11,297 bases of DNA from Thermoplasmata archaeon. GTDB taxonomy: Archaea; Thermoplasmatota; Thermoplasmata; Thermoplasmatales; Thermoplasmataceae. The stretch spans positions 1 to 11,297 of the forward strand of contig JAKBGP010000049.1 of the NCBI GenBank assembly GCA_021833045.1. Reading direction: 5' to 3'. The position numbers and the translations under genes are program-made. The notes beneath the pieces are model-generated. The model was not told the origin of the DNA. It saw nothing but the letters and a program-made list of their open reading frames with translations, and searched no databases. Position 1 is the first letter of the stretch. Every line of letters begins with the position of its first letter. Shown in pieces: positions 1 through 11,297 of this stretch.

Positions 1-1
1 T

Positions 2-76
2 AGCTATAACTCATGCTCATGCAACGGAGTACATATTTCAGTGCCGATTCAGGTTCCCATTCCTGTTGATGGATAA
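2..76 (+). CDS. C-terminal end of an upstream gene (partial; possible small secreted peptide)
   Basis: A reading frame is open from the window edge to a TAA at 74-76. It encodes SYNSCSCNGVHISVPIQVPI followed by PVDG. The tail has a Cys-Ser-Cys pair and then an alternating hydrophobic stretch with VPI occurring twice, which looks like a beta-strand. The stop lies 1 base before the AGAGGAGG SD site of the next gene, so this frame would be co-transcribed with the membrane/ABC cassette. I do not recognise the family. A small cysteine-containing secreted peptide exported or countered by the downstream ABC system is an inference only. A second frame (3-101, ending GALSE) is also open, but part of it merely translates the SD site. 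The start is outside the window. Confidence 0.45.
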   Translation, partial: SYNSCSCNGVHISVPIQVPIPVDG

Positions 77-79
77 AGA

Positions 80-84
80 GGAGG
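80..84 (+). promoter_or_regulatory. GGAGG Shine-Dalgarno site of the first membrane gene
   Basis: GGAGG complements the conserved archaeal 16S rRNA 3' end (anti-SD CCUCC). It abuts the GTG at 85 with no spacer, which is too close for normal initiation. The in-frame CTG at 94 lies 9 bases downstream, so this site argues for the CTG as the real start, or for a shifted one. Confidence 0.55.
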
Positions 85-1035
85 GTGCTCTTTCTGAATA
101 AATATAAATTATTCATTTTTTTTATTGTTTTCTTGCTGATAGCTTCTTTACCGGCTTTAACTATATCATTGATCAAAAATGGTCAGAACGATAATATCGG
201 AAATATAAACTATCTGAAATATCAGGAAAAATCAGCTATAGCACTTTATAATAATGGGAATGGAACAACTTCTCAAGAGCTTTTAGTATACCAAAAGAAC
301 TTCACTTCTTGCTTTACATTATCTTTTATTGGGAATAAAACAATATTTTCTGATACCACGACCGGTGTTAATTTATCAACCCTAATAGATATTATATATT
401 CTGACACTCCCACCTTTCCTTCAGATCCTCTTAATAATCACACTATTTGCCAGAGTTCAAACCATGCCCTTGAAAACTCTCCTTACAGTTCCATTTTCGG
501 TTTTATCAGTATTACTAAAAAATTGTTTGTGTGTGGAATCTATGATAACAATTTGAAAACTCCCAGTGGTGGGCACCCCTTGTATGGATCAGAAACTATG
601 AACATCAAGTATGCGTCTTTAAAAAACGGAAACCTGATGTATAGAAGCAATAGCTTTGTTAGTTTCACAGGTACAGAAAGTATATATAATGAATGCTTCC
701 AAAACAAGAGTTATTCCACGCTATATGACCTTCTGGGTGGAACTACAATTCTTTTGGATGTGGCGAGTCATTCGAATAACTCGGAAAACTTTATTCTTTC
801 AGCAGGTTCAACCATTACACTTATAAGCACAAATGTTCAATTCGTACCAATTATATCTCATTATATTGAGTATGGAATATTAACAGGAAGCATCTTCCTC
901 GTAGCATGTACGTTGTATTGCTATGGCAGAAGTAGAAAATGGAACGTGTATCAATCGATGTTTTTTCCGTTGCTTGGATCGATAATGATGATGATTTTTA
1001 TACTTCCATATACATACGTCTACTATTTGCTTTAG
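85..1035 (+). CDS. Membrane-anchored surface protein with large glycosylation-rich ectodomain (unknown family)
   Basis: I do not recognise this 316-residue protein. Residues 8-30 form a hydrophobic signal-anchor. About 31-258 look extracytoplasmic, and two further helices follow at 262-282 and 291-314. The ectodomain has seven N-X-S/T sequons (N59, N72, N84, N96, N118, N207, N231) and four cysteines (C76, C122, C150, C204), consistent with a glycosylated, possibly disulfide-bonded surface domain. It is followed 18 bp later by an ABC ATPase, a permease and a small membrane protein, so it is probably the surface or substrate-handling part of that system. The annotated start is GTG at 85, but the GGAGG at 80-84 fits the in-frame CTG at 94 better, giving a protein starting at NKYKLF. 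The gene is strongly AT-rich (17 G/C in 121-180). Function is unknown; exporter accessory or immunity protein are both possible. Confidence 0.75.
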   Translation: MLFLNKYKLFIFFIVFLLIASLPALTISLIKNGQNDNIGNINYLKYQEKSAIALYNNGNGTTSQELLVYQKNFTSCFTLSFIGNKTIFSDTTTGVNLSTLIDIIYSDTPTFPSDPLNNHTICQSSNHALENSPYSSIFGFISITKKLFVCGIYDNNLKTPSGGHPLYGSETMNIKYASLKNGNLMYRSNSFVSFTGTESIYNECFQNKSYSTLYDLLGGTTILLDVASHSNNSENFILSAGSTITLISTNVQFVPIISHYIEYGILTGSIFLVACTLYCYGRSRKWNVYQSMFFPLLGSIMMMIFILPYTYVYYLL

Positions 1036-1053
1036 AAAAATATCGGTGTGATC

Positions 1054-1869
1054 ATGATAGAACTGGACAATGTATCAAAGAAATTTAATAAAAAATTTTT
1101 ATTTAAAAATTTATCTTTCACATTCGAAAGAGGTAAAACTTTGATACTTGGCCCAAATGGAATTGGAAAAACAACTCTATTATCAATGATGTTCGGATTG
1201 ACAAGGCCAAATGGTGGGCATATAAGATGTTTTGGATATGATTCTATAAGTGATTTCAAGAAGGTCAAAGAAAAAATGTCATACCTTCCATCAGAATGTC
1301 AGTTTCCATCTTCACTGAAATTTGCAGATATTATAGATTATGCACTTTCATACACTTCTGAAAACAGTGTTTCCTTTTATCTGGAAAAGTTGAAAGTGAA
1401 TTATTTGCTTATGCAACAACTGAGAAGTATGTCAAGCGGGGAAAAACGCCTTTGCGCAATAGCTTTTACACTTTTCTCTTCAAAAGATGTTATCATTATG
1501 GATGAACCACTTGTAAATGTTGACAAGGAAAGACAGTTGATTGTGGCTGAGATAATAAAATCCGAAAAAAAGGACATAATCATGACAACACATCAAGACG
1601 ATTTTGTTTATTCAGGAGATTTTCACATAGTTAAAATTGTGAAAAACAAAGATACCATGCTGTCAGAAATATACACTTCAAATGTAATTAATAAGATTAT
1701 AAGGATATCAGTCACAGAACCATCTGAAGTAAGCAGGATTCTAAAGAACTACTCAATAGATTTTACAATTAAAAATAATGAATTGATCCTATCATTGGAA
1801 CCTGACCTCAAAGTTATGGATGAAATTATGAAATATATTGTTTCTTTCAGGAGGTCGGTGAATTATTAA
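1054..1869 (+). CDS. ABC transporter ATP-binding protein
   Basis: This is a cytoplasmic ATPase that powers the membrane permease encoded next. From the ATG at 1054 (271 aa), Walker A GPNGIGKTT is at 33-41, the signature MSSGEK at 126-131, Walker B VIIMDE at 146-151, the D-loop NVD just after it, and the switch histidine H180. The Q-loop position reads YLPS (77-80), with Ser where Gln or Glu is usual in CcmA/ABC-2 exporters. About 60 residues follow the ATPase core, as in many ABC-2 type ATPases. A GTG at 1048 is a possible alternative start; the ATG has a weak GGTG at 1045-1048 upstream. The stop overlaps the start region of the permease gene, implying translational coupling. An export rather than import role is inferred from family resemblance and from the lack of a recognisable lipoprotein solute-binding protein. 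Confidence 0.92.
   Translation: MIELDNVSKKFNKKFLFKNLSFTFERGKTLILGPNGIGKTTLLSMMFGLTRPNGGHIRCFGYDSISDFKKVKEKMSYLPSECQFPSSLKFADIIDYALSYTSENSVSFYLEKLKVNYLLMQQLRSMSSGEKRLCAIAFTLFSSKDVIIMDEPLVNVDKERQLIVAEIIKSEKKDIIMTTHQDDFVYSGDFHIVKIVKNKDTMLSEIYTSNVINKIIRISVTEPSEVSRILKNYSIDFTIKNNELILSLEPDLKVMDEIMKYIVSFRRSVNY
1850..1854 (+). promoter_or_regulatory. GGAGG Shine-Dalgarno site inside the ABC ATPase gene, for the permease
   Basis: GGAGG followed by TCGGTGA places ATT at 1862 seven bases downstream and a second ATT at 1865 ten bases downstream. Both are in the permease frame. No ATG, GTG or TTG in that frame lies within SD range; the first is TTG at 1919. The same GGAGGTCG string precedes the ATG of the next gene with an 8-base spacer. 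Confidence 0.6.
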
Positions 1870-2524
1870 GAATCTAAAAAATCTTTTCGTCTGGTTTGTA
1901 GTTTATTCTGCAAATACCTTGATTCTTCCAGTTTCATTCATATTAGCTATCGTATTGACGTTTTTTGTCTCACCAACAAACAATGGAATTAGAACTGTGG
2001 CAGTATTTGTAACGTTTATGTGCATTGCATATATGATGAATTTTAATTTTAAATTGACAAATATGTATGAAAAAAATGAGGGATTTTTTTATTTCTCAGC
2101 GAACTTGTCAAGAACTTCAGTACTCGTATTGTTCACAGTATCCGGTTTGCCACTTGCCTTGCTTTTCCCTTTTATAATTCTGGATAATTCAGGAATCAAT
2201 ATTTCTTTTAACGTATTTTATGCGGTGTTGCTGTATGTGTTATTCTATTATTTTTTAATGTTGGCAACTTCTATTCTTTTCAGGAAACCTCAAATACCAA
2301 TGTTTCTAATTTTATTCATTTTCATTTTGCCCATATTCCTTGAAAGCTATCTTACTTCTCAGAGTGAAATATTGATGGTTTATGGGTTAACACCTATGTC
2401 TCTTTCAAATTCGTCTATAGTCTTGAATTGGAGATTTTTTAATATATTGACCGATTATGTAGTTTCTGCAGTAGTATTTCTTATTACATCTATTTCTATT
2501 GAAAAATGGAGGTCGTTTCCATGA
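1862..2524 (+). CDS. ABC-2-like permease, six membrane helices, probable ATT start
   Basis: This is an integral membrane protein with about six hydrophobic segments. Counted from the ATT at 1862 they lie near residues 17-38, 47-65, 85-110, 118-137, 145-164 and 195-213, the usual arrangement of an ABC-2 type permease half. It follows the ATPase gene with an overlap, so the two should form one transporter. A TTG at 1919 would give 201 residues but would cut into the first helix. The frame upstream is open back to a TGA at 1859-1861 and encodes IKNLKNLFVWFVVYSANT, a natural cytoplasmic start plus helix. With GGAGG at 1850-1854, ATT at 1862 or 1865 is the best start (about 220 aa). The gene is very AT-rich with little residue conservation to use, so the family assignment rests on topology and position. 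Confidence 0.72.
   Translation: MIKNLKNLFVWFVVYSANTLILPVSFILAIVLTFFVSPTNNGIRTVAVFVTFMCIAYMMNFNFKLTNMYEKNEGFFYFSANLSRTSVLVLFTVSGLPLALLFPFIILDNSGINISFNVFYAVLLYVLFYYFLMLATSILFRKPQIPMFLILFIFILPIFLESYLTSQSEILMVYGLTPMSLSNSSIVLNWRFFNILTDYVVSAVVFLITSISIEKWRSFP
2508..2512 (+). promoter_or_regulatory. GGAGG Shine-Dalgarno site fixing the start of the small membrane protein
   Basis: GGAGG sits 8 bases before the ATG at 2521. It overlaps the ATG at 2506-2508 of the longer open frame, so 2521 and not 2506 is the start. Confidence 0.7.
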
Positions 2525-2952
2525 ATAAAATTATTGTACTCTTGCTTCTCACATTATCACTTTCCATTATGATTAATGGTATTCAGTATTCTGGATTTCA
2601 AACATATATTCCTCAAGATTTTCATTCTGAATTGAATGTTTATCCATTTGAAAAGGTCTCCTTCACCTTACTATCAGACTATAACACCCTCGTTAATATA
2701 TCAATAAATGGACATGTCTATTCAATGAAAAGAGGAGAGGTGCTATGGATTAACAGTTCATCTAACTATAATAATTTGAATATTCAGACTTATACGGGTC
2801 TTTTCTTGCTTGAAGTATCTGTTCACCCTAACCTACTTTTAAAAAATTTATACGAATTTTCCGGAAGTTCAGTATTTTTACTGTTGATATCTTATGTAAT
2901 TTATCGATATTCTGTAGAGCGTAAAACCACCAATATAAATCAAAAGTTGTAA
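2521..2952 (+). CDS. Small membrane protein with extracytoplasmic domain (unknown family)
   Basis: The 143-residue product is not recognised. A hydrophobic N-terminal segment (about 4-20, MNKIIVLLLLTLSLSIM) is a signal peptide or anchor. It is followed by about 90 mostly polar, beta-rich residues with two N-glycosylation sequons (NIS and NSS). A C-terminal membrane helix (about 116-133) ends in a short basic tail. If the N-terminal segment is cleaved, it is a type I surface protein. The start overlaps the permease stop in an ATGA arrangement, with a good SD, so it is co-translated with the transporter and is probably a subunit or immunity-like partner. It shares the layout of the first gene (N-terminal hydrophobic segment, glycosylated outer domain, C-terminal membrane segment) on a smaller scale. 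The cassette ends here. Confidence 0.72.
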   Translation: MNKIIVLLLLTLSLSIMINGIQYSGFQTYIPQDFHSELNVYPFEKVSFTLLSDYNTLVNISINGHVYSMKRGEVLWINSSSNYNNLNIQTYTGLFLLEVSVHPNLLLKNLYEFSGSSVFLLLISYVIYRYSVERKTTNINQKL

Positions 2953-3311
2953 AGAGCTTAGATTCGGCACTCTGAATCAATGCCGTATGTAACGAAAGTT
3001 TGGGATCATATTATTTCAGAAACAGTTCCCTGTAGTCTATTATCATCTCTGGGTTAGTACACCTCAGATAACTGTACTGCCTGAGGTTGAGCATGTTGGC
3101 CTTCTGTAGTCTTCATGGCAATGAATACAATACAGGATTCTGATCTGCAGATGGTTGCTTCCATATCTGGAAAAGTATAATGCGGAGTATTATTTTGGAA
3201 TCATAACAAACTCACCCGAAAGCCATAGTGAAACAAAAGCATGGTAGAATAATTTTGTCCCAATCCATCTACATATGCAGGTTTATCTATGACTTCAATA
3301 TATTGCTTTAA
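2945..3311 (-). pseudogene. Gene-free spacer with remnants of a decayed minus-strand gene
   Basis: No intact gene fills this 359-bp gap between the cassette and the thymidylate kinase. Read on the minus strand, three stretches look protein-like but are split by stops and frame changes. From about 3311 comes LKQYIEVIDKPAYVDGLGQN and onward; then, in another frame, FQIWKQPSADQNPVLYSLP; then from about 3090 MLNLRQYSYLRCTNPEMIID and onward. The last continues after one TAA with YDPKLSLHTALIQSAESKLF. The third segment uses AGG, CTC and CTG codons like the housekeeping genes, not like the AT-rich cassette. A decayed transposase or other host gene is possible; I cannot name the family. No terminal inverted repeats were found. 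Two weak overlapping hairpins (GATTC/GAATC and CGGCA/TGCCG, 2961-2985) follow the cassette stop. Confidence 0.3.
3282..3290 (+). promoter_or_regulatory. TATA box of the thymidylate kinase gene
   Basis: TTTATCTAT is centred 26 bp before the ATG at 3312, with no SD between them. This is the spacing expected for a leaderless archaeal transcript. Confidence 0.5.
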
Positions 3312-3950
3312 ATGAGTGAAAAGGGGAAGTTCATTGTTCTTGAGGGTATAGACAGATCAGGAAAGAGTACTCTGGTGGATGGTCTCTATCATCACCTTGA
3401 AAACATGGGTTTTGATGTTTTTCTTACGGATGAACCAACTTCATTCTTTGATGAAAGATTCTCATCTCTGTATGAAAATGAACCTTCACCTGAAACTGAA
3501 TTTCCTATTCTCACATCCCTGTTCCTGAAAGACCGGGAGATCCATAATCGCACAATAAAGGAAAAACTGTCTGAAGGAAAGATTGTCCTTTGCGTGAGAT
3601 ATTCCCTTTCAACCTTTGCTTATCAGGGTGTTTATTTCAAGAAATATTTTCCTGATGACAATTCATTCTTTGAATGGATGCTTACATTCATGAAAATGTT
3701 TCATATAAACCCTGATCTCACTATATTCATAGACTTCAACAGCAAGATGTTCATGGAAAGGGGGAGCAGGGGAAAAAGATATTTATTGTTTGAAAAGGAA
3801 CAATACCTGTCTGAAGTTTATGGGCTCTACAGGATGTGCGTGGAAAGAAAGGCACTTTCCCTGGCATATCTGAACATTCCAGGCAGGCTGAATATTGAAG
3901 AAATGAGGGATATTGCCCTGAATGAAGTCATCAGAATAATCAAAGAGTAG
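3312..3950 (+). CDS. tmk: Thymidylate kinase (dTMP kinase)
   Basis: This cytosolic enzyme phosphorylates dTMP to dTDP with ATP for dTTP synthesis. The 212-residue protein has the P-loop GIDRSGKST at 12-20, the DEPT segment at 40-43, the FAYQG substrate motif at 102-106, and a LID-like basic stretch ERGSRGKRY at 149-157. Length and motif order match the family. The usual DRY/DRH triplet reads VRY (V95-R96-Y97): the Arg is kept but the Asp is lost. The start is an ATG with a TATA box 26 bp upstream and no SD. Its 3' end overlaps that of the convergent methionine aminopeptidase gene by 11 bp. A related nucleoside-phosphate kinase with altered specificity is the main alternative. Confidence 0.9.
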   Translation: MSEKGKFIVLEGIDRSGKSTLVDGLYHHLENMGFDVFLTDEPTSFFDERFSSLYENEPSPETEFPILTSLFLKDREIHNRTIKEKLSEGKIVLCVRYSLSTFAYQGVYFKKYFPDDNSFFEWMLTFMKMFHINPDLTIFIDFNSKMFMERGSRGKRYLLFEKEQYLSEVYGLYRMCVERKALSLAYLNIPGRLNIEEMRDIALNEVIRIIKE

Positions 3951-4812
3951 TCACAGTCACAGAATCCCCATCAAACAGAACTGTGTGTTCAGCCTGTGAT
4001 ATCATTGAACCTCTGTGCTCCTTCAAAACTGCGAAGTGTGAGATCTGCTTCATGAAAAGATTCTTCTTCAGATATTCTTTATAATCCGGCTTGATCTTTG
4101 CAAGCCATCTCTCTGCAAATGGAAGCGTGTTGAAATTGTCTATGACCGGATCGCCTTTCTTCTGTTTTGTTCCACTGAATATGTATATATTTCCTCCAGG
4201 CCCATTGTGTATCATTCCAATACCTGTGGATGCAAAAGGTTCTATTGCAATGAGCTGGTTCGGTTCTATCCTTCTCCTGTTGCCATCATCATAATTTGGT
4301 ATGAATATAGTTGAGTGCAGATCATATTGCTTAATTCCATGTCCGCCCAGATTCTTTACCGGTTTGAATCCAAAAGATTCTATTGTTTCTCCTATGGCTG
4401 CACCTATCCTGTTAATCTCTACAGAGGGCCTGAGAACCTTAAGCGCGGAATTGAGCGCTGCCCTGGAACATTCTATGAGATCGCTGTATTTCCCCTGGTT
4501 TCCGACTTCCACTGTTGCAGCATTGTCAGATATGTATCCTTCGACCTGCGCCCCAATATCCACCTTCACCACATCTCCTGTCCTGAAAGTTTTGGTGTCG
4601 CCCGGTGAAGGGGTGTAATGTGCAGCCTCATTATTTATGGAAAGGTTCAGTGGAAAGGATGGGAGTCCTCCGTTGTCCCTTATGAACTGCTCAGTCTTTT
4701 CTGCAACATCCAGTAAAAGTGATCCAGGTTCTATGAGTGACTGTGCGTACTCAAGAGCCATTTTACCAAGCTTACCGGCCTCAAGTGTTTTTCTCCTGAC
4801 CAGCGGATCCAT
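3940..4812 (-). CDS. map: Methionine aminopeptidase, type II (archaeal)
   Basis: This cytosolic metallopeptidase removes the initiator methionine from nascent proteins. The 290-residue length fits archaeal MetAP2. All five metal ligands are visible: D85 (VKVDIG), D96 (ISDNAA), H158 (GGHGI), E191 (AIEPFA) and E275 (SQAEHT). The substrate-contacting H65 (NEAAHYTP) and H166 are also present. The ATG start has TATAAA (minus strand) about 24-28 bp upstream and no SD, so it is probably leaderless with its own promoter. The regulator gene lies 90 bp upstream on the same strand. The 3' end overlaps the thymidylate kinase gene tail to tail. Nothing is missing from the catalytic core. Confidence 0.95.
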   Translation of the reverse strand: MDPLVRRKTLEAGKLGKMALEYAQSLIEPGSLLLDVAEKTEQFIRDNGGLPSFPLNLSINNEAAHYTPSPGDTKTFRTGDVVKVDIGAQVEGYISDNAATVEVGNQGKYSDLIECSRAALNSALKVLRPSVEINRIGAAIGETIESFGFKPVKNLGGHGIKQYDLHSTIFIPNYDDGNRRRIEPNQLIAIEPFASTGIGMIHNGPGGNIYIFSGTKQKKGDPVIDNFNTLPFAERWLAKIKPDYKEYLKKNLFMKQISHFAVLKEHRGSMISQAEHTVLFDGDSVTVTTL

Positions 4813-4834
4813 GAAACCTTATACGAACATTGAA

Positions 4835-4840
4835 TTTATA
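4835..4840 (-). promoter_or_regulatory. TATA box of the methionine aminopeptidase gene
   Basis: TATAAA on the minus strand lies 23-28 bp before the ATG at 4812, with no SD site between. This fits a leaderless start. Confidence 0.5.
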
Positions 4841-4902
4841 GATTATTTGGATTCAGAATGAAGAAACTATGGCTTGCCCCCGTCTCTCTAAAAATTGCAT
4901 CA

Positions 4903-5556
4903 TCAAACAGGATTATTTTCAATCTGGTTGGCCTTCTTTCTTGTTATGGAAAAGGAACATACGTTCGAGCCTGTGGCTATGGTTTCTTTCAGGCAAGAAT
5001 CCATCCCAAAAATCTCGCTGAATATCGAGTTTTCCTTTTCACAGATCTTTCTATGCTTCCTCGCAAAGGAACTGATTGGACAGGCCCCCTGGATCAGCGT
5101 GAATTCATTTTCGTCGTCATACACAATCCTGGTAGTGTAACCTTCAGAATTCCTGATCCTTGAGAATTCTGCGATTCTGTCTTCCAGGATAAGATTCTCA
5201 AGATTCTCCTTCAGGTATGATGTGACACTTTCTATATAATTGTCTATAAAATAAGGAAGTTTTTCCCCGTCAATTTTATTCTCGATGAAGTTGAGGGCCT
5301 CATCTTTAAGATCAGGGTACCTTTTGTTCCTGATTCGAAGTTCCCTAACTGATATCTTACATACAGGTCTTCCCCTGCCTGATGATTGATATTTCCTCTG
5401 AACATAGCCTGCCTTTTCAAGGGATGTGATGTGCTTCAGTATGGCTGTCTTGGACATTCCAGCACTCTTGCTTATATCTTCAAGAGAAGGATTTCCGAGA
5501 TTTATGATTTTTTCAAGTATTGATATATCTGAAACAGTACAGCCTTGCCTGGCCAT
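4903..5556 (-). CDS. SufR-like winged-helix regulator with four-cysteine Fe-S-type C-terminus
   Basis: This 217-residue regulator has an N-terminal winged helix-turn-helix (about 12-54, with LEDISKSAGMSKTAILKHIT as the recognition region) and a basic wing GRGRPVC at 60-66. The C-terminal part carries C159, C172, C188 and C200 (C-X12-C-X15-C-X11-C) in the context ACPISSF, ICEKEN, FGMDSCL and VCSFSI. SufR-type regulators have the same layout: a first pair spaced C-X12-C, a following acidic stretch, and a last Cys in a C-x-F-x-I context, and they bind an Fe-S cluster. An Fe-S, redox or oxygen sensor is therefore likely. The gene diverges from a Rieske ferredoxin-ETF operon across a 170-bp AT-rich spacer, so that operon is the obvious target, along with itself. 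No SD precedes the ATG; an AT-rich TTAATA about 21-26 bp upstream may be its TATA box. Confidence 0.8.
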   Translation of the reverse strand: MARQGCTVSDISILEKIINLGNPSLEDISKSAGMSKTAILKHITSLEKAGYVQRKYQSSGRGRPVCKISVRELRIRNKRYPDLKDEALNFIENKIDGEKLPYFIDNYIESVTSYLKENLENLILEDRIAEFSRIRNSEGYTTRIVYDDENEFTLIQGACPISSFARKHRKICEKENSIFSEIFGMDSCLKETIATGSNVCSFSITRKKANQIENNPV

Positions 5557-5637
5557 GTATGTTTATTGTAAATGACTATTAATCTTTTTAATTTTCATGT
5601 TATATCTTTAAGTTATCAAATATTCACCAATTTGTAA

Positions 5638-5654
5638 AATAAAAATAATTTATT
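5638..5654. repeat. Inverted repeat AATAAA-N5-TTTATT in the regulator/Rieske divergent spacer
   Basis: There are perfect 6-bp arms with a 5-bp spacer, about 40 bp before the Rieske TATA box. A perfect CGATATCG palindrome follows at 5657-5664. Either could be an operator for the divergent regulator. The first is pure A/T, so chance is a fair explanation. Confidence 0.25.
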
Positions 5655-5692
5655 CTCGATATCGCCTTATAATCTCTATTTCCCCAACACAC

Positions 5693-5700
5693 TTATAAAT
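5693..5700 (+). promoter_or_regulatory. TATA box of the Rieske-ETF operon
   Basis: TTATAAAT is centred about 30 bp before the ATG at 5727, with no SD. A TSS at or a few bases before the ATG is expected. TATTGCAT at 5711-5718, between TATA and start, matches 8 bases of the inverted-repeat arms at 8379-8410. Confidence 0.55.
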
Positions 5701-5726
5701 GAAATCTGGATATTGCATAGATAAAC

Positions 5727-6044
5727 ATGACTTGGTACAAAGTTGCAAAAGAAAACAGTATGAGGGATGGAGATCTTGCAAAGATAAGTGTGAATAACCA
5801 AGAGGTGCTCATAATTAGAGATGGGGATAAATTCTATGCTACATCACATCTGTGCACTCATGAGGAGTATGATCTCTCTGAGGCATTTATGGATGACCAT
5901 CAGCTCATTTGCCCAAACCATTTTGCCACGTTTGATCCAAAGGATGGTTCAGTCATTAGCCCTCCGGACGGTGCGGGAGATATTTCTCCTCTTAAATCCT
6001 TCAAGACCAAGGTTGAGAATGGTGACGTAATGGTTGAGATTTAA
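5727..6044 (+). CDS. Rieske [2Fe-2S] ferredoxin
   Basis: This small (105 aa) soluble electron carrier has the complete Rieske cluster motif: C43-T-H45 and C62-P-N-H65, binding one [2Fe-2S] cluster through two Cys and two His. No membrane helix or signal peptide is visible, so it is a cytoplasmic Rieske-type ferredoxin rather than a bc1-type subunit. Nor is there a fused oxygenase domain. Its stop overlaps the ETF start by one base (TAATG), so the two are translationally coupled, suggesting it exchanges electrons with the ETF or its dehydrogenase partners. A nitrite-reductase small-subunit or dioxygenase-ferredoxin role is possible by family, but no such partner lies in the window. Confidence 0.93.
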   Translation: MTWYKVAKENSMRDGDLAKISVNNQEVLIIRDGDKFYATSHLCTHEEYDLSEAFMDDHQLICPNHFATFDPKDGSVISPPDGAGDISPLKSFKTKVENGDVMVEI

Positions 6045-7756
6045 TGAAAATTCTTGTTTTTGTAAAACAGGTTCCTGATGTGAACAAAGTCTCTTTCGAC
6101 ATAGCAACAGGAAGAATCATCAGAGAGAATGTTCCCCTCAGCATGAATTCCTTCGACAGGAGAGCTGTTGAGGAGGCTATCAGGCTCAAGGAGAAGCATG
6201 GCTTCACTGTGGAGGTTGTTTCTATGGGGCCCCCTCAGGCCATAGATGTCATCAACGAATCCCTGCGTATGGGTGCAGATGAAGGATTCCTGATCACTGA
6301 CCGGAAATACGGTGGTGCAGATACATGGGCCACCGCATACATCCTTTCATATTTTGCAAAACAGAGAAAGCCAGATCTCATGATAGGCGGGAAATACTCT
6401 TTGGACGGAGAAACTTCACAGGTTCCTCCAGAAATATCAAAAATGTGTGAATACAGGTTCTTCTCATCCATTTCGAAAATAGAGGTTCAGGAGAATGGAG
6501 TCTTTCTGGAACAGGATTATGAGCATGGAATTTTGAAAATCAAAAGCAGTTTCCCCATGATGATTTCAGTGAGCGAGAAGATAAACAGGGCAAGAAAAAT
6601 TGATGATTCTGTTCCGGACATGAAGGAGAGAGTACAGATAATTGATTCTGGGAAGCTTGGACTGGATTTCAATGGCAATTCCGGATCGCTCACTATTGTG
6701 GATGGAACTGAAATGCTTCAGTCTAAGAGAGTTCCGAAAAATATCACCCTTGATGAAGCGGTTGATATGCTTGAAAGTGCTTTGAAAAATAAGGGAAAAA
6801 AAGATTCCAGAGAAGAGATAAGACTCGAAACTGACTTTTCCGGTGGAACTGTAATGGGAATTGCACTGCTTGACAGCACTGTTTCTATAGAGATAGCGTC
6901 GGAGGTTTCCAAACTTTCCAGAACCAATAAATTTCTCACAGTCATGGCAGGAAACGTATCACCGGACAAACTCAAAGGAATGCCTGCGAATCACTATTAC
7001 CATATTGACTCCACGGATCCATTTTCACTTTCGATGGAGATAGGGAAGCTCATTGATCAGTTAAAGCCGGAATTCGTGATCTTTCCTTCTAATTCCACAG
7101 GAAGGGATGTGGTTGCATTCATTGCAGCAGAGAAGAAACTGGGCCTCACTGCCGATTGTGTGGATATAAAATATGAGAATGGAAAGCTTGTCCAGTTCAA
7201 GCCTGCCTTTGGTGGAGGTATCATAGCAAGGATACTATCAAAAACAAAGCCTGGAATGGCAACTGTCAGGCCAGGAATGTTCAAACAGGCATTTTCCAGG
7301 GAGGAATTCCAAATTCATTCCATAAAAACAGAATCATCAGGTCTCTATGAAACAGTTTCCGATGAGAGAATAGAGGAAAAGTATCTTCCCCTGAACAGTG
7401 CAGATATAGTCATAGGACTTGGAAGGGGGGTTAAATCTAGATCCCTTGTGGAATCCTTTGTGGGATTTTCAAGAAAATACGGCATAGGAATGGGTGGAAC
7501 CAGGCCTGTTGTCGATATGCACCTGCTTCCAAGGCAGCAGCAGATCGGCATAACCGGAATGGCCATTTCTCCTGAACTTTACATCGCAGTGGGTGTCTCC
7601 GGAATGGATAATCATATGTCAGGGTTGAGATATGCAGGGAAGATTGTATCAATCAACAATGATCCATCTTCACCAATAAACAGGCTGGCAGATTACACTA
7701 TAAATGCCACTGCAGAGGACTTCATGAAAATTCTTGAGAAAAGATTTGTCTCATAA
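6044..7756 (+). CDS. Fused electron transfer flavoprotein, beta-alpha (FixA-FixB)
   Basis: This is one 570-residue chain carrying both ETF subunits. The beta part runs from about 1 to 250 and begins MKILVFVKQVPDVNKV, a typical ETF-beta N-terminus. A charged linker (about 248-262) leads to the alpha part from about 268. The FAD-binding alpha C-terminus shows GRG (460-462), GGTRPVVD (484-491), QIGITG (500-505), GVSGMDNH (517-524) and SINNDPSSPI (536-545). The common QVGQTG and GISGAIQH are slightly changed. ETFs carry electrons from acyl-CoA and other dehydrogenases to a quinone oxidoreductase, or take part in electron bifurcation; which applies here cannot be told. No FixC/ETF-QO gene is nearby; the only linked redox gene is the Rieske ferredoxin upstream. 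The tail is convergent with the next gene across 5 bp. Confidence 0.95.
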   Translation: MKILVFVKQVPDVNKVSFDIATGRIIRENVPLSMNSFDRRAVEEAIRLKEKHGFTVEVVSMGPPQAIDVINESLRMGADEGFLITDRKYGGADTWATAYILSYFAKQRKPDLMIGGKYSLDGETSQVPPEISKMCEYRFFSSISKIEVQENGVFLEQDYEHGILKIKSSFPMMISVSEKINRARKIDDSVPDMKERVQIIDSGKLGLDFNGNSGSLTIVDGTEMLQSKRVPKNITLDEAVDMLESALKNKGKKDSREEIRLETDFSGGTVMGIALLDSTVSIEIASEVSKLSRTNKFLTVMAGNVSPDKLKGMPANHYYHIDSTDPFSLSMEIGKLIDQLKPEFVIFPSNSTGRDVVAFIAAEKKLGLTADCVDIKYENGKLVQFKPAFGGGIIARILSKTKPGMATVRPGMFKQAFSREEFQIHSIKTESSGLYETVSDERIEEKYLPLNSADIVIGLGRGVKSRSLVESFVGFSRKYGIGMGGTRPVVDMHLLPRQQQIGITGMAISPELYIAVGVSGMDNHMSGLRYAGKIVSINNDPSSPINRLADYTINATAEDFMKILEKRFVS

Positions 7757-7761
7757 TTTGA

Positions 7762-8349
7762 TTACCATCTCGTGAATGGAGGGGGCTTCTTGTTTCTTTT
7801 TTCCAGATCTTCCTCATATTTCTGGAGCATGATTCCTCCTATCATTGCAACACCTGCAACTACCTGCGCACTCAGGTTCTGCACACCGAGCCCAACCAGT
7901 GCAAACCACATAGCCATTGCTCCTGCAAATGCTGCAACATAAAGGCTCAGTTTCTCGAAACGAACATAACATATGAAGAAAATGATTATTCCTATCACCG
8001 CAGCAACAACTGTGTTTATTGGAGTGAAAAGATACAACGCAAGAGTTATGCTTCCTGCAAGGACAAAACATATGAATGCCTTGGCTGCAAAATTTACCAG
8101 TATTGCCCCAACAACTGCACCTATAAGCAGAATGATGAAAGTTGGCAGGGTGGTGACATGGAATCGAATCAGCATTATGGATGTAAACACAAACCCTATA
8201 TACGCCCCCATTGCATACATTATGATTTTCCAGGATGCCTTTCCCCAGAAAATCAGTGCTATGGCGATAAAAATTAGGATCACATAAATTGTGAAGGAAG
8301 AGAACCCAAATAAACTGGAAGGAATCAGTGCGTTGAGGCCAGATGCCAT
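7762..8349 (-). CDS. Multi-helix membrane protein, TMEM198/DUF4203-like
   Basis: The 195-residue protein is almost wholly hydrophobic, with about six to seven membrane segments (first near residues 20-35, last near 162-175) and a basic, proline-containing C-terminal tail (EEDLEKRNKKPPPF). Small-residue repeats such as GAVVGAI and AGAMAMW recall the TMEM198/DUF4203 family of unknown function; that match is by general appearance only. The ATG at 8349 has a TTAAAT TATA box 24-29 bp upstream and no SD. It diverges from a PadR regulator, and inverted repeats sit over the shared spacer, so PadR control is plausible. It could be the effector of that regulator's response, for instance to membrane-active compounds. 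Confidence 0.7.
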   Translation of the reverse strand: MASGLNALIPSSLFGFSSFTIYVILIFIAIALIFWGKASWKIIMYAMGAYIGFVFTSIMLIRFHVTTLPTFIILLIGAVVGAILVNFAAKAFICFVLAGSITLALYLFTPINTVVAAVIGIIIFFICYVRFEKLSLYVAAFAGAMAMWFALVGLGVQNLSAQVVAGVAMIGGIMLQKYEEDLEKRNKKPPPFTRW

Positions 8350-8372
8350 TATATAAGGAAAAGAGAGAATCT

Positions 8373-8378
8373 ATTTAA
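8373..8378 (-). promoter_or_regulatory. TATA box of the divergent membrane-protein gene
   Basis: TTAAAT on the minus strand lies 24-29 bp before the ATG at 8349. It is directly adjacent to the left arm of the inverted repeat starting at 8379, where transcription factor B would bind. Confidence 0.45.
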
Positions 8379-8410
8379 CTATTGCATTTTGGAATGCGTT
8401 CATGCAATAG
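8379..8410. promoter_or_regulatory. Perfect 9-bp inverted repeat, candidate operator
   Basis: CTATTGCAT (8379-8387) and ATGCAATAG (8402-8410) are perfect reverse complements separated by 14 bp, about 23 bp centre to centre (two helical turns). A dimeric regulator could bind both arms on one DNA face. The repeat abuts the minus-strand TATA box. An inner GCATT/AATGC pair (8384-8397) and an adjacent ATGATCAT palindrome (8411-8418) add symmetry. Confidence 0.5.
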
Positions 8411-8426
8411 ATGATCATGTAATGAA

Positions 8427-8433
8427 TTTAAAT
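8427..8433 (+). promoter_or_regulatory. TATA box of the PadR regulator gene
   Basis: TTTAAAT is centred 31 bp before the ATG at 8461. The predicted TSS falls near 8456, inside the 8445-8460 palindrome. Confidence 0.5.
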
Positions 8434-8444
8434 AGTCAATAAAG

Positions 8445-8460
8445 ATATCGAAATCGATAT
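8445..8460. promoter_or_regulatory. Palindromic operator ATATCGA-AA-TCGATAT abutting the PadR start codon
   Basis: There are perfect 7-bp arms with a 2-bp spacer, ending exactly at the base before the ATG. It covers the predicted transcription start, so binding would block initiation. Autorepression by the PadR protein is the simplest reading. Confidence 0.55.
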
Positions 8461-8970
8461 ATGAGCGCAGGTGAATATCTTGATAGTGCACTCTTCATTC
8501 TTTCACTCAAGCCCATGAGTGGTTATGAACTCTCCAGAAAACTGAAATGGGATGGTTCCATAGTTTCTGGAGGTACCATAAGGCCATTGCTGCATTCCCT
8601 TGAGAAACAGGGACTCATAACCTATGATACAAGAGGAAGGGCAAAGGTTTATAAACTGACCAAGAGCGGTGAAAGATATGTTTCAAACCTCAGACTCTTC
8701 AGGGAAACCATAAGGGAGAAAATGCTTGCATCATCCATGGGCAGAGATATACTTTTTCCAGATATTCTCGTGGATCTGGAGGATGCTATGACATTGAATT
8801 ATGCCATTGAAGACATGGCAAGCCTCATCATAAGAGAGGTAAAGATCGCTTTTGAATTGAGAAAGGGCGGGTATGATGAGGATATAACAGAACTCAGGAT
8901 GAAGATACACGACCTCCTTTCTGAAAGCATAAAAAAGAGAAGCCTGAAACAGGAAGAATTACATGAATAA
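8461..8970 (+). CDS. PadR-family winged-helix transcriptional regulator
   Basis: The 169-residue protein has an N-terminal PadR winged helix (about 5-75). Visible elements are ALFILSLKPMSGYELSRKL, the recognition helix with GGTIRPLLHSLEKQGLI, and the wing DTRGRAKVYKLTKSG. A helical C-terminal region (about 80-165), likely coiled coil, should mediate dimerisation. PadR proteins are usually ligand-responsive repressors that control their own gene and a linked transporter or membrane protein. Here a divergent multi-helix membrane protein lies on one side and a CopD-like membrane protein 43 bp downstream. The promoter is leaderless, with a perfect palindrome on the start site. The ligand cannot be inferred. 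Confidence 0.88.
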   Translation: MSAGEYLDSALFILSLKPMSGYELSRKLKWDGSIVSGGTIRPLLHSLEKQGLITYDTRGRAKVYKLTKSGERYVSNLRLFRETIREKMLASSMGRDILFPDILVDLEDAMTLNYAIEDMASLIIREVKIAFELRKGGYDEDITELRMKIHDLLSESIKKRSLKQEELHE

Positions 8971-9013
8971 CTAATCATAAAATGTTCATTAAACAGTAGG
9001 CTATGTACAGAAT

Positions 9014-9517
9014 ATGAATGCATTTATTGAATATGCAGATATCGTTATACTGTGGATCCATGTATTCACTGCAATTTTCTTCGTTGGAGGTTCTTTTTTC
9101 ATCTGGCTTGTGGTGATGCCGTCTTCCTACAAGATTACGGATGATGAGAAGCTTAGAACAAAGATCGTTGGAACCATCGGTAAGAATTTTGCCTTTTTTA
9201 CAAATATATCTGTAATAATTCTTATATTTACCGGGCTTTACAATATGACCTGGTACCTTGGAGGTAACTATTCTGCTCTCTATAACACATTCTATGGCGA
9301 GATATTGCTTGCAAAGATCATTCTTGTGGGAGCAATGATACTGCTGATGTATGGGAACAACATGTATCATGGAAAAAAGATAATGAACATGGTCAGGGAT
9401 GGGAAGATGGATGAGGTCAGGAAGCTCAGGAAAACATCACACTATCTTTCGTACATAACACTGTTCCTGATGGCACTCATAACTCTGCTCGCAGTATCAT
9501 TGGAATTTTATGGATAA
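9014..9517 (+). CDS. Four-helix membrane protein, CopD-like
   Basis: The 167-residue protein has about four membrane helices (near 9-33, 61-83, 91-112 and 140-164). Helix 1 contains WIHVFTAIFFVGGSFF, in which the His and the following VGG recall the CopD/HemJ-like superfamily of haem- or copper-associated membrane proteins. H143 near the start of helix 4 could pair with H17 as metal or haem ligands. The match rests on pattern only, and function (copper uptake, haem binding or other) is unknown. A TTAAAC at 8989-8994 may be its TATA box; it could also be read through from the PadR gene. It converges on rps7 with 21 bp between stops. Confidence 0.65.
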   Translation: MNAFIEYADIVILWIHVFTAIFFVGGSFFIWLVVMPSSYKITDDEKLRTKIVGTIGKNFAFFTNISVIILIFTGLYNMTWYLGGNYSALYNTFYGEILLAKIILVGAMILLMYGNNMYHGKKIMNMVRDGKMDEVRKLRKTSHYLSYITLFLMALITLLAVSLEFYG

Positions 9518-9530
9518 AAATATTAGAAGG

Positions 9531-9551
9531 TTCTGCAATTATCTTGCAGAA
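9531..9551 (-). terminator. Perfect 8-bp hairpin around the rps7 stop codon
   Basis: TTCTGCAA (9531-9538) and TTGCAGAA (9544-9551) are exact complements, with a 5-base loop holding the rps7 TAA. On the minus strand a T-rich TATTTTTATC follows, and the + strand also enters a T/C-rich stretch. The hairpin lies at the junction of two convergent genes and could end transcripts from both. Confidence 0.45.
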
Positions 9552-10102
9552 GCTGCTACTCTCTCTATTTCCTCTTTCTTGGAAACTGCGTGAGAGTTCT
9601 GGTCGTTTCTTGCTGCCTGCATAATTTCATCCGCAAGGCATGCCTCTATGGGTTTTTTGCTCTTGTATGAAGCATCTGTGCTTCCTATGGCAATGTTTCT
9701 CAGGGCCTCGTCAAGCCTTCTGGATGGTGCAACATCCACTGCCTTTGGAACTGCAATTCCACCATATTTCAGCCTGGTCACCTCTTCTCTGGGTGCAGCG
9801 TTTTCTATGGCGTTTATAAGAATCTGCACTGGATTCTGCTTGGTCTTGTCCTCAATTATCTGGAATGCTTCTTTAAGGATCCTGTATGCACCATATTTCT
9901 TTCCTGTCCACTTCTCGGTTCTCATGAGTTTGTTTATGAGCCTTTCGAGAGTGTTCACATTCTTCTTTCCTGAAGAATAGTTTGAAAACCTGCCACCAGT
10001 GTGAAGGTTCATGTATGAATTGAGGTTTATGTACTTTGAAAGTCCCACGTCATGAACCTCTATGGCAGATGTGTCATATTTTCCGAATATTTTTATTTCC
10101 AT
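9539..10102 (-). CDS. rps7: 30S ribosomal protein uS7
   Basis: This protein binds the 3' major domain of 16S rRNA, nucleates the head of the small subunit and lines the exit tRNA site. The 187-residue length and N-terminal extension fit archaeal uS7. Diagnostic stretches include the helix and loop [18 protein letters not shown] (90-107), [20 protein letters not shown] (110-129) and the C-terminal [14 protein letters not shown]. The start overlaps the rps12 stop (TAATG), so the pair is coupled. In many archaea fusA and tuf follow; here the gene ends against a convergent membrane-protein gene. Confidence 0.97.
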
Positions 10103-10530
10103 TATCTCACCGTCTTCTCCTTTCTTCCCCTCACTAGTTCCCTGAGGGAAATGGTGTTTACTGCCACTACCTTATATCTGACTCCAGGGATGTCTCCCTT
10201 ACTTCTTCCTCTACTTCCACCGATTCCTTCGACAATAACCTCGTCGTGTTCATCAATGTAGTTAATTGCCCCGTCACCGGGTGCAAAGGCTGTGATCTGC
10301 CTTCCGTTCTTTATGAGCTGAATTTTAACGCACTTCCTTATGGCTGAGTTTGGCTGTTTTGCCTCTATACCTATCTTCTCAATAACTATGCCTCTTGCCT
10401 GAGGGGCCCCTTCCAGTGGGTCACTCTTCTTCTTCAGTTCCAGCATTCTTCTCTTGTACTTACTGTTGGACCATCTGAATTTTTCCCTGTCTTCGCTCAG
10501 TTTTGAACCTGCATTTTCTCCATTCGCCAA
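10102..10530 (-). CDS. rps12: 30S ribosomal protein uS12
   Basis: This protein sits at the decoding centre and contributes to accuracy and tRNA selection. The 142-residue archaeal/eukaryotic form shows the universally conserved [10 protein letters not shown] (58-67), PGDGA (84-88) and [20 protein letters not shown] (106-125). The start is TTG at 10530. In-frame ATGs are absent nearby, and AGGTGAT lies just upstream as an SD site, which settles the start. A TATA box is at 10597-10603, giving a leader of roughly 40 nt. It is coupled to rps7 downstream. The RNA polymerase and nusA genes that often precede it in archaea are absent upstream; a transporter gene is there instead. Confidence 0.97.
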
Positions 10531-10533
10531 TAT

Positions 10534-10540
10534 ATCACCT
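10534..10540 (-). promoter_or_regulatory. Shine-Dalgarno site supporting the TTG start of rps12
   Basis: AGGTGAT on the minus strand matches the anti-SD and lies three bases (five from the GGTG core) before the TTG at 10530. Most other genes in regions 3-4 lack an SD. Confidence 0.65.
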
Positions 10541-10596
10541 ATTTTGAAATTGATATGTTACACTTTCGTGAATTAGAGGGGTAATTGAAATATGAA

Positions 10597-10603
10597 TATA
10601 AAT
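10597..10603 (-). promoter_or_regulatory. Probable TATA box of the rps12-rps7 operon
   Basis: ATTTATA on the minus strand lies about 70 bp before the start codon, predicting a leader near 40 nt that contains the SD. This is the only recognisable core promoter in the spacer for this strand. Confidence 0.45.
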
Positions 10604-10619
10604 TCTACCTAACTTCGTG

Positions 10620-10658
10620 ACCTGCAAGCATGATGCACCTATGATAAATATTGCAGGT
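10620..10658. repeat. Nested inverted repeats in the rps12/MFS spacer
   Basis: ACCTGCAA (10620-10627) and TTGCAGGT (10651-10658) are perfect complements with a 23-base spacer. Inside it ATGATGC (10630-10636) pairs instead with GCATCAT at 10672-10678, so two mutually exclusive hairpins can form. The remaining spacer to 10873 is AT-rich, with an 8-bp direct repeat GAGTTGTT (10714-10721, 10731-10738) and a possible MFS promoter (BRE-like GAGGAAAC then TATATG, 10815-10829). No RNA gene was seen. Confidence 0.35.
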
Positions 10659-10873
10659 TGCCACATCTGAAGCATCATTTCAGAAAATCCGTTTTTGATA
10701 ATCCAATTATTAGGAGTTGTTCATAAGAAAGAGTTGTTTTTTGATAAAATAATTATTGAATGATTAGATATCTCTGATAAAGTGTTGGATAAGTGTCTGA
10801 ACTGTTGAATAATTGAGGAAACGTATATGTTATGGGATTGAAACATAAGAATGCTCCTACAGGGATGTAACTG

Positions 10874-11297
10874 ATGGCGGGAAATAAGACGCTCATAGGA
10901 CTCAGATCGTTCCTTTCATCTGTGGGGGCCACTGCTGCCTCAACCTTTGTGGGAATTTATGCAGTTATACTTGGTGCGGGTGCAATTGAAATGGGATGGC
11001 TTCAGTCCAGTTTCAACTCCATCAGCAATGGGGCCCAGCTACTGTGGGGCAAGTTGAGCGACAGAACTGGCAGGAGAAAGGTTTTTCTTTTCATAGGAAG
11101 CTTGATTCTTGCGATCCTGTGGTTCCTGATGCCATTTTCAGGAACGCCTTATGTGCTTATAATAATCTATTCATCTATTGCCCTCTTCGGTTCCATGATC
11201 ACGGTAAACTGGTTCTCCCTCATAGCTGATATGTATGATTCTTCCATCAGGGGAAAGTTCCTGGCATTCATCAACAACATTTCATCTATTGGAACCA
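10874..11297 (+). CDS. MFS transporter (N-terminal part; continues past the window)
   Basis: The frame is open from ATG 10874 to the window edge (141 codons seen). About four membrane helices are present. Between helices 2 and 3 is the major facilitator motif GKLSDRTGRRK (59-69), which defines the cytoplasmic loop of MFS carriers. A later SSIRGKFLAFINN (123-135) resembles the family's loop 4-5 region. The substrate cannot be told; sugar, drug and metabolite porters share these motifs. A stop (TAA, 10868-10870) lies two codons upstream, fixing the start at ATG 10874 (or CTG 10871). TATATG at 10824-10829 would give a leader near 20 nt. It diverges from rps12. Confidence 0.9.
   Translation, partial: MAGNKTLIGLRSFLSSVGATAASTFVGIYAVILGAGAIEMGWLQSSFNSISNGAQLLWGKLSDRTGRRKVFLFIGSLILAILWFLMPFSGTPYVLIIIYSSIALFGSMITVNWFSLIADMYDSSIRGKFLAFINNISSIGT

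Follow-up and report, generated by a model that had tools for sequence, protein, structure and literature searches.

The left end of an 11,297-nucleotide stretch of Thermoplasmata archaeon DNA (assembly GCA_021833045.1, contig JAKBGP010000049.1, positions 1 to 11,297 of the forward strand; hereafter the window) carries five co-directed frames at 1-2952, named A, B, C, D and E, which are the 3′ part of a larger cassette extending upstream beyond the left edge of the window. Our results raise the possibility that this cassette is an archaeocin (bacteriocin-like) locus, in which A would encode a secreted toxic protein and B to E, built around an ATP-binding cassette (ABC) transporter, would serve as immunity; we hold this reading tentatively, at slightly less than an even chance, as the likeliest of those considered. 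It is suggested by the repeated discarding of a probably secreted product while the ABC transporter was kept. With less assurance, it is possible that the Thermoplasmatales, acidophiles deficient in cell wall, carry an order-wide, multi-copy and mobile set of archaeocin proteins together with an immunity complex of the transporter type. The toxin gene of this set may be phase-variable by way of simple repeats in the leader and may have been lost repeatedly, giving rise to immune non-producers.

The initial annotation had described these five frames as an uncharacterised surface-protein/ABC-transporter cassette, a description that was borne out, and the gene order, which it had asked to be looked for in other Thermoplasmatales, does recur. 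The union of the window-family and wider ATPase searches gave 40 loci in 27 of the 117 genomes of the order, with up to four loci in one genome (G085, G057); the module is strain-variable and far wider than one operon. All 40 loci were examined, and B-C-D-E occur in that order in 38, which argues against chance; in the two exceptions, L149 and L152, the locus is interrupted by the end of a contig or by a stretch of N. An open A lies upstream at 27 of the 38 sites where its place is visible, four of them doubtful, and a multi-helix D follows C in 39 of the 40, the D of L149 running off its contig. A profile built from C brought in further ATPases from 13 of 117 genomes at 1e-42, and one built from the group so obtained gave 33 matches in 23 of 117 genomes at 1e-48. 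This second group was found via the ATPase alone, so that its B, D, E and A genes are independent observations; the control for gene neighbourhood with an unrelated ATPase comprised one case. The weakest ATPase match, in G019 from another family (E 6e-49), still has the full arrangement, and the edge of the module family has therefore not been reached. Where whole, B proteins have about 270-324 aa, with that of L098 cut by a contig end, that of L012 split and the start in L011 uncertain. Hydrophobic segments at both ends were found for B in 35 of 38 loci and for E in 33 of 38 (a single one in L009, L012, L099, L157 and L158), and D has 4-7 hydrophobic segments across the 38 loci at the threshold used.

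Within this constant arrangement, gene A stands out by its losses. At the 38 sites where it is visible (L098 and L152, at contig ends, are left out), A was judged by eye to be intact in 23, doubtful in four and broken or absent in 11, whereas B is broken in 1 of 37 (L012) and D and E in none seen, entered as 0 of 76 from length and hydropathy (Fisher test, A versus B p 0.003, A versus D and E p 2e-6, A versus all three p 7e-7). On the assumption that a lost A is never regained, each of the 11 broken copies traces to an event of its own on the tree of the ATPase, read without regard to branch supports. They comprise internal near-complete deletions leaving the leader only (L012, L149), a frameshift at a GA repeat (L013), a stop inside the hydrophobic segment (L102), a split by a DDE transposase gene (L144, PF01609) or by an insertion (L146), a leader frameshift (L150), truncated or frameshifted copies (L135, L137), a remnant (L145) and a site at which nothing recognisable remains (L151). 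Most of the genomes are drafts; L102 and L146 come from a single-contig genome. At one shared site downstream of two electron transfer flavoprotein (ETF) genes (PF01012), A is present in G054 (L143) and deleted to the leader in G057 (L149). B to E are open where A is broken, the exceptions being B in L012 and, in L149, B, D and E, which are gapped or cut.

The four doubtful copies of A are a degenerate one in L011, one with a leader stop and a possible later start in L100, and two in L015 and L099 in which the frame is open and the hydrophobic segment lies in another frame, the best 19-residue hydrophobicity being 0.5 and 0.9 in frame versus 1.8 and 2.8 out of frame. In both of the latter (A region of L015; L099:1443-1640), which are distant loci, the segment is found in the +1 frame, as if frameshifts on both sides compensated each other.

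Pairwise comparisons between A-less and other loci gave ratios of nonsynonymous to synonymous substitution rates (dN/dS) of 0.10-0.41 for B to E, indicating purifying selection on these genes in such comparisons. In the close pair L140/L141, A has a dN of 0.140 versus 0.033-0.037 for B to E, about fourfold, and a dN/dS of 0.76 versus 0.21-0.39. There is also a hint that the leader tracts of A could be phase-variable: simple repeats within the first 130 nt were found in A of 6 of 27 loci versus 3 of 156 B to E genes (p 4e-4, with a repeat definition chosen post hoc), and the leader of A in L013 (G072; L013:7933-8040) is frameshifted at an (AG)6 tract. An AG repeat occurs in the same part of A in L097, and a run of nine G in L156.

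According to the archaeocin-like reading, A would leave the cell via its N-terminal signal or membrane segment, and A, or a fragment cut from it, would damage related cells at the membrane. B to E would assemble as a membrane complex, with C as the ATPase, D as a channel half and B and E as anchored subunits with outward domains; this complex would bind A outside the cell through B and/or E and, using ATP, would remove it from the membrane and so protect the owner. Strains with B to E and without A would then be immune non-producers. The hosts are archaea, described as cell-wall deficient in the case of Cuniculiplasma, so that lipid II would be an unlikely target for A. What the sequences show directly is the gene order, the likely topology, presence and absence between relatives, the repeated loss of A and the low dN/dS of B to E, whereas the secretion and toxicity of A, immunity through B to E, the direction of transport and every step of this mechanism are inferred. 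Peptide export or immunity had been offered in the initial annotation, and the evidence favours immunity or self-protection over export. B to E as a dedicated exporter of A is disfavoured because they persist with low dN/dS where A has been lost and because most A proteins bring an N-terminal hydrophobic segment of their own. The product, of about 160-270 aa, is not a small peptide.

Several points weigh against this reading. No module member has a known activity, and the A proteins scanned match no known toxin in the Pfam or NCBIfam libraries; nor do profiles of the window-family and second-group A proteins resemble each other significantly. One A protein, P0015, reaches the Pfam cut-off of Glyco_transf_64 in a partial match (23.3 bits versus 21.3, profile positions 95-202 of 245), with its relatives below the cut-off (P0013 17.6 bits, L009 14.2) and A of L010, L011 and L014 unmatched; we take the match as probably due to chance, and the upstream gene, which might have proved to be an ordinary enzyme, is not obviously one. 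Gene A is, moreover, intact in 23 of 38 loci, its states were judged by eye, and D and E were judged by length and hydropathy only, while the loci were picked by similarity of C, which is biased against broken C and makes C no fair comparison. The dN/dS ratios, being pairwise, average in time before A was lost. The rapid evolution of A is not universal: L154/L155 gave 0.58, 0.55 and 0.52 for A, B and C with very few changes, and in L009/L010 A (0.11) and B (0.13) are equally constrained. Among bacterial counterparts, no lactococcin-972 locus has B and C genes of proven role, according to the consulted portion of the source (PMC11796350). Finally, losing any costly or virus-targeted secreted protein would look alike if B to E had another job.

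Two other explanations would give B to E such a job. The first takes A for an adhesin or another protein of the cell surface, which may act as a virus receptor and which selection silences or removes; B to E would place, fold or release A and have other clients as well. The N-terminal hydrophobic segment could keep A anchored, and the repeats early in A (6/27 versus 3/156), together with the (AG)6 tract at the L013 frameshift, suit on/off switching; the repeat threshold, however, was set after looking at the data. A dedicated assembly complex should furthermore decay with its client, whereas B to E stay open with low dN/dS, and no surface-layer or adhesin domain was found above cut-off in the A proteins scanned. 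We consider this explanation unlikely, if still worth keeping in view. About as likely, or marginally less so, in our judgement, is that B to E form a general detoxification or envelope-stress transporter for amphipathic compounds, foreign peptides or lipids, A being an accessory sensor, scavenger or envelope modifier useful in some habitats only. A communication system, with A as a secreted signal precursor and B to E as exporter or importer, seems improbable. In its favour, the product is multi-copy, variable, probably secreted and accompanied by a dedicated ABC transporter; against it, C is without a peptidase domain, no recurring sensor kinase or response regulator was noticed among the neighbours (by eye, not systematically), and A, at about 160-270 aa, is a whole protein.

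Only the last 24 codons and the stop of A, the C-terminus of a probably secreted protein, lie inside the window (2-76, forward strand), the remainder being upstream. Frame 2 reads SYNSCSCNGVHISVPIQVPIPVDG followed by the stop, the same end as that of the 229-aa proteins P0012 and P0013, and A continues for 17 residues past the Cys-Ser-Cys that had been taken for the end of the upstream frame. Complete window-family copies have 227-229 aa, as in L009 (688-1371, 227 aa), within a range of about 160-270 aa across the module. At the N-terminus of the protein lie about 30 residues of charged character, followed by one hydrophobic segment and then by an outer part, mostly strands in a poor structure model (pLDDT 43). 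Most A proteins have an N-terminal hydrophobic segment of their own, as judged by hydropathy alone, and A is probably sent outside via this signal or membrane segment. In many second-group A proteins, inspection by eye shows the hydrophobic segment to be preceded by a leader patterned around an Asp; these proteins also share a linker rich in Gly and a C-terminal end that is hydrophobic and in some terminates in SGGG, while A in G043, G059, G060 and G065 has a plain signal-peptide-like start. The lactococcin 972 family was matched neither by the 12 window-family A proteins (Pfam/NCBIfam, E up to 1) nor by A of L134, L148, L154, L156 and L158 (E up to 0.1).

The four genes that follow in the window lie on the forward strand as well. 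Apart from P0015, none of the A, B, D and E proteins scanned reached a Pfam or NCBIfam cut-off, and the PADLOC anti-phage families gave no match for A (of L009), B, D or E at E up to 0.01, with generic ATPase matches only for C. Gene B (85-1035, 316 aa) has hydrophobic segments at its N- and C-terminal ends, the outer domain being mostly strands and followed by two C-terminal helices in a structure model with pLDDT 63; a LolA/LppX lipid-carrier fold is a tentative candidate for this outer domain. Membrane anchoring, seven N-x-S/T sites and four ectodomain cysteines (76, 122, 150 and 204) are present as annotated, but none of the four cysteines is kept across 11 aligned B proteins. B homologues are confined to cassettes in the genome searches, and between the two groups the B proteins can be matched weakly near the C-terminus, at TNV...P...HY (hhalign Prob 68, E 4.9e-5). 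The start is GTG 85 or slightly downstream; GTG 85 almost abuts GAGGAGG, a distance too short for normal Shine-Dalgarno spacing. Ahead of the ATG of E at 2521 lies GGAGGT.

Gene C (1048-1869, 273 aa) is the ABC ATPase that had been recognised (PF00005, E 4.5e-23), with aligned motifs that we take to be Walker A (GPNGIGKTT), signature (SSGEK), Walker B (DEP) and H-loop (TTH). The usual Gln of the Q-loop is missing, LPSE or similar being found in the window family and mostly PERP in the other group, and no peptidase domain was detected on C at E up to 1. Gene D (1862-2524, 201-220 aa) is a permease with about six helices and without a Pfam family; its start is uncertain, since homology begins at about 1862 while the first standard in-frame start codon is TTG 1919. 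The annotated count of six agrees with the D of L009, near-identical to that of the window, which has six hydrophobic segments at a threshold of 1.5. The ABC-2 Pfam models were unmatched by D in 11 members (E up to 1) and by the D of L148 and L080 (E up to 0.1). Gene E (2521-2952, 143 aa) is the second small surface protein, with an N-terminal hydrophobic segment, an ectodomain and a weaker C-terminal hydrophobic stretch; in the window the N-terminal segment alone passes the threshold, and in L014 and L015 the C-terminal one passes as well. No solute-binding family was recognised among the A, B and E proteins scanned, and none was noticed between A and E, so that import by the cassette is unlikely, as had been proposed.

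The family to which the window belongs is narrow. B and D are each found in the same 7 of the 117 genomes; the window-type ATPase search returned those seven and G042, and the A search six of the seven and G078, with an A profile recovering the seventh, G115. Among 400 genomes drawn evenly from the class, A and B profiles found nothing beyond the same six (6/400 each). The order A-B-C-D-E holds in all seven window-family genomes, A being a remnant in G055, and the neighbours differ: thymidylate kinase (tmk, PF02223) in the window, G056 and G055, and Kdp-type and pyrimidine-synthesis-type genes (names by eye) in G049. In G000 and G051 the left-hand helix-turn-helix gene adjoins tmk and the cassette is absent from that site, with G051 carrying its own cassette elsewhere. 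Upstream of A in G056, a piece of 132 bases is similar to the 3′ terminus of a gene for a DDE transposase (PF01609 in G053), whose last 17 codons it carries. On the other side of the cassette, 3000-3108 in the window is a possible mobile-element relic, with 83% identity over 109 bases to a place in G054 that lies 597 bases from a Mutator-family (PF00872) transposase frame, and the right edge of the cassette island falls at 3280-3311, directly before tmk, the blastn alignment against contig C76 of G000 starting from window position 3282.

The AT-rich character of the block noted initially is seen in a GC content of 30-35% in 1-3000 versus 34-46% beyond (36-46% apart from a dip to 34-35% at 5251-6000). 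From 1 to about 4170 the window is 98-100% identical to G056, and from 4172, compared as far as 7171, it is 99.97% identical to contig C17 of G000. The contig thus crosses a strain branch point, which reflects either genuine recombination in the strain or the joining of two strains during assembly. At 4172-4298 this branch point coincides with an exact overlap of 127 bases between contigs C76 and C17 of G000. Beyond tmk, window positions 4903-7756 hold a MarR-like regulator (PF01047), a Rieske protein (PF00355) and a fused ETF gene (PF01012 and PF00766).

Outside haloarchaea and Sulfolobales, little is known of how archaea antagonise one another, and the module, made up of unnamed protein families, is a direct candidate, open to test, for a set of archaeal protein toxins with matching immunity in wall-less cells. 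It also gives what was a group of hypothetical proteins the shape of a defined system. The presence or absence of the cassette at the tmk site in close relatives is, in addition, a natural experiment for strain-level competition in acid mine drainage.

Among transporters, the nearest comparison is with ABC-2 type exporters such as DrrAB, NatAB and PmtAB, which have a separate ATPase and a six-helix permease. C scores, under all cut-offs, with such ATPases and also with ABC-F and CcmA models, its relatives of solved structure include ABC-F and ABCA proteins, and D, with 4-7 hydrophobic segments, is likewise without a fused ATPase. Unlike these exporters, the cassette has a D that matches no ABC-2 Pfam model in the members scanned, a C that is missing the Q-loop Gln, and two anchored outer proteins; unlike the exporters of double-glycine bacteriocins, it has no C39 peptidase domain on C.

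Archaeocins (halocins and sulfolobicins), compared here by description and not by sequence, are archaeal secreted proteins directed against relatives, and proteolytic maturation is common among halocins in the part of the source consulted (PMC12893001), in which a five-gene ABC cassette is not described. The VARTIG module of Thermococcales is likewise archaeal, hypervariable and of unknown function, with a part in conflicts or in self/nonself recognition proposed for it, but in the text consulted it is led by a large Ig-domain protein, versus an A of about 160-270 aa here, and an ABC transporter goes unmentioned (PMC8416519). In the consulted part of the Cuniculiplasma genome report, islands and toxin-antitoxin genes are discussed and the term ABC transporter is absent (PMC5155288), and that of the E-plasma report gives no bacteriocin loci by antiSMASH and BACTIBASE (PMC10354927). 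No description of the module was found in the literature searched, a scope that does not take in a 2019 archaeal-toxin review.

The lactococcin 972 and streptococcin B (scbABC) loci of Gram-positive bacteria show the same layout in the consulted portions of their sources: a bacteriocin gene is followed by two predicted immunity and transporter genes (PMC11796350, PMC4055356). The module differs from scbABC in having five genes versus three, two membrane-anchored outer proteins, archaeal hosts and A proteins of which none scanned matches a bacteriocin family in Pfam or NCBIfam. C gives 79.9 bits against the lactococcin-972 type ABC model TIGR03608, the third best listed and far under the cut-off of 254.85, and it scores with many other ABC models too. 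As far as these sources were consulted, a putative ABC transporter is credited with immunity to lactococcin 972 (PMC4055356), and scbBC occur alone, without the bacteriocin gene, in 157 of 571 pneumococcal genomes (PMC11796350). The cassette resembles loci of this type in that its putative immunity genes outlive the lost gene of the putative toxin, A being broken in 11 of 38 loci.

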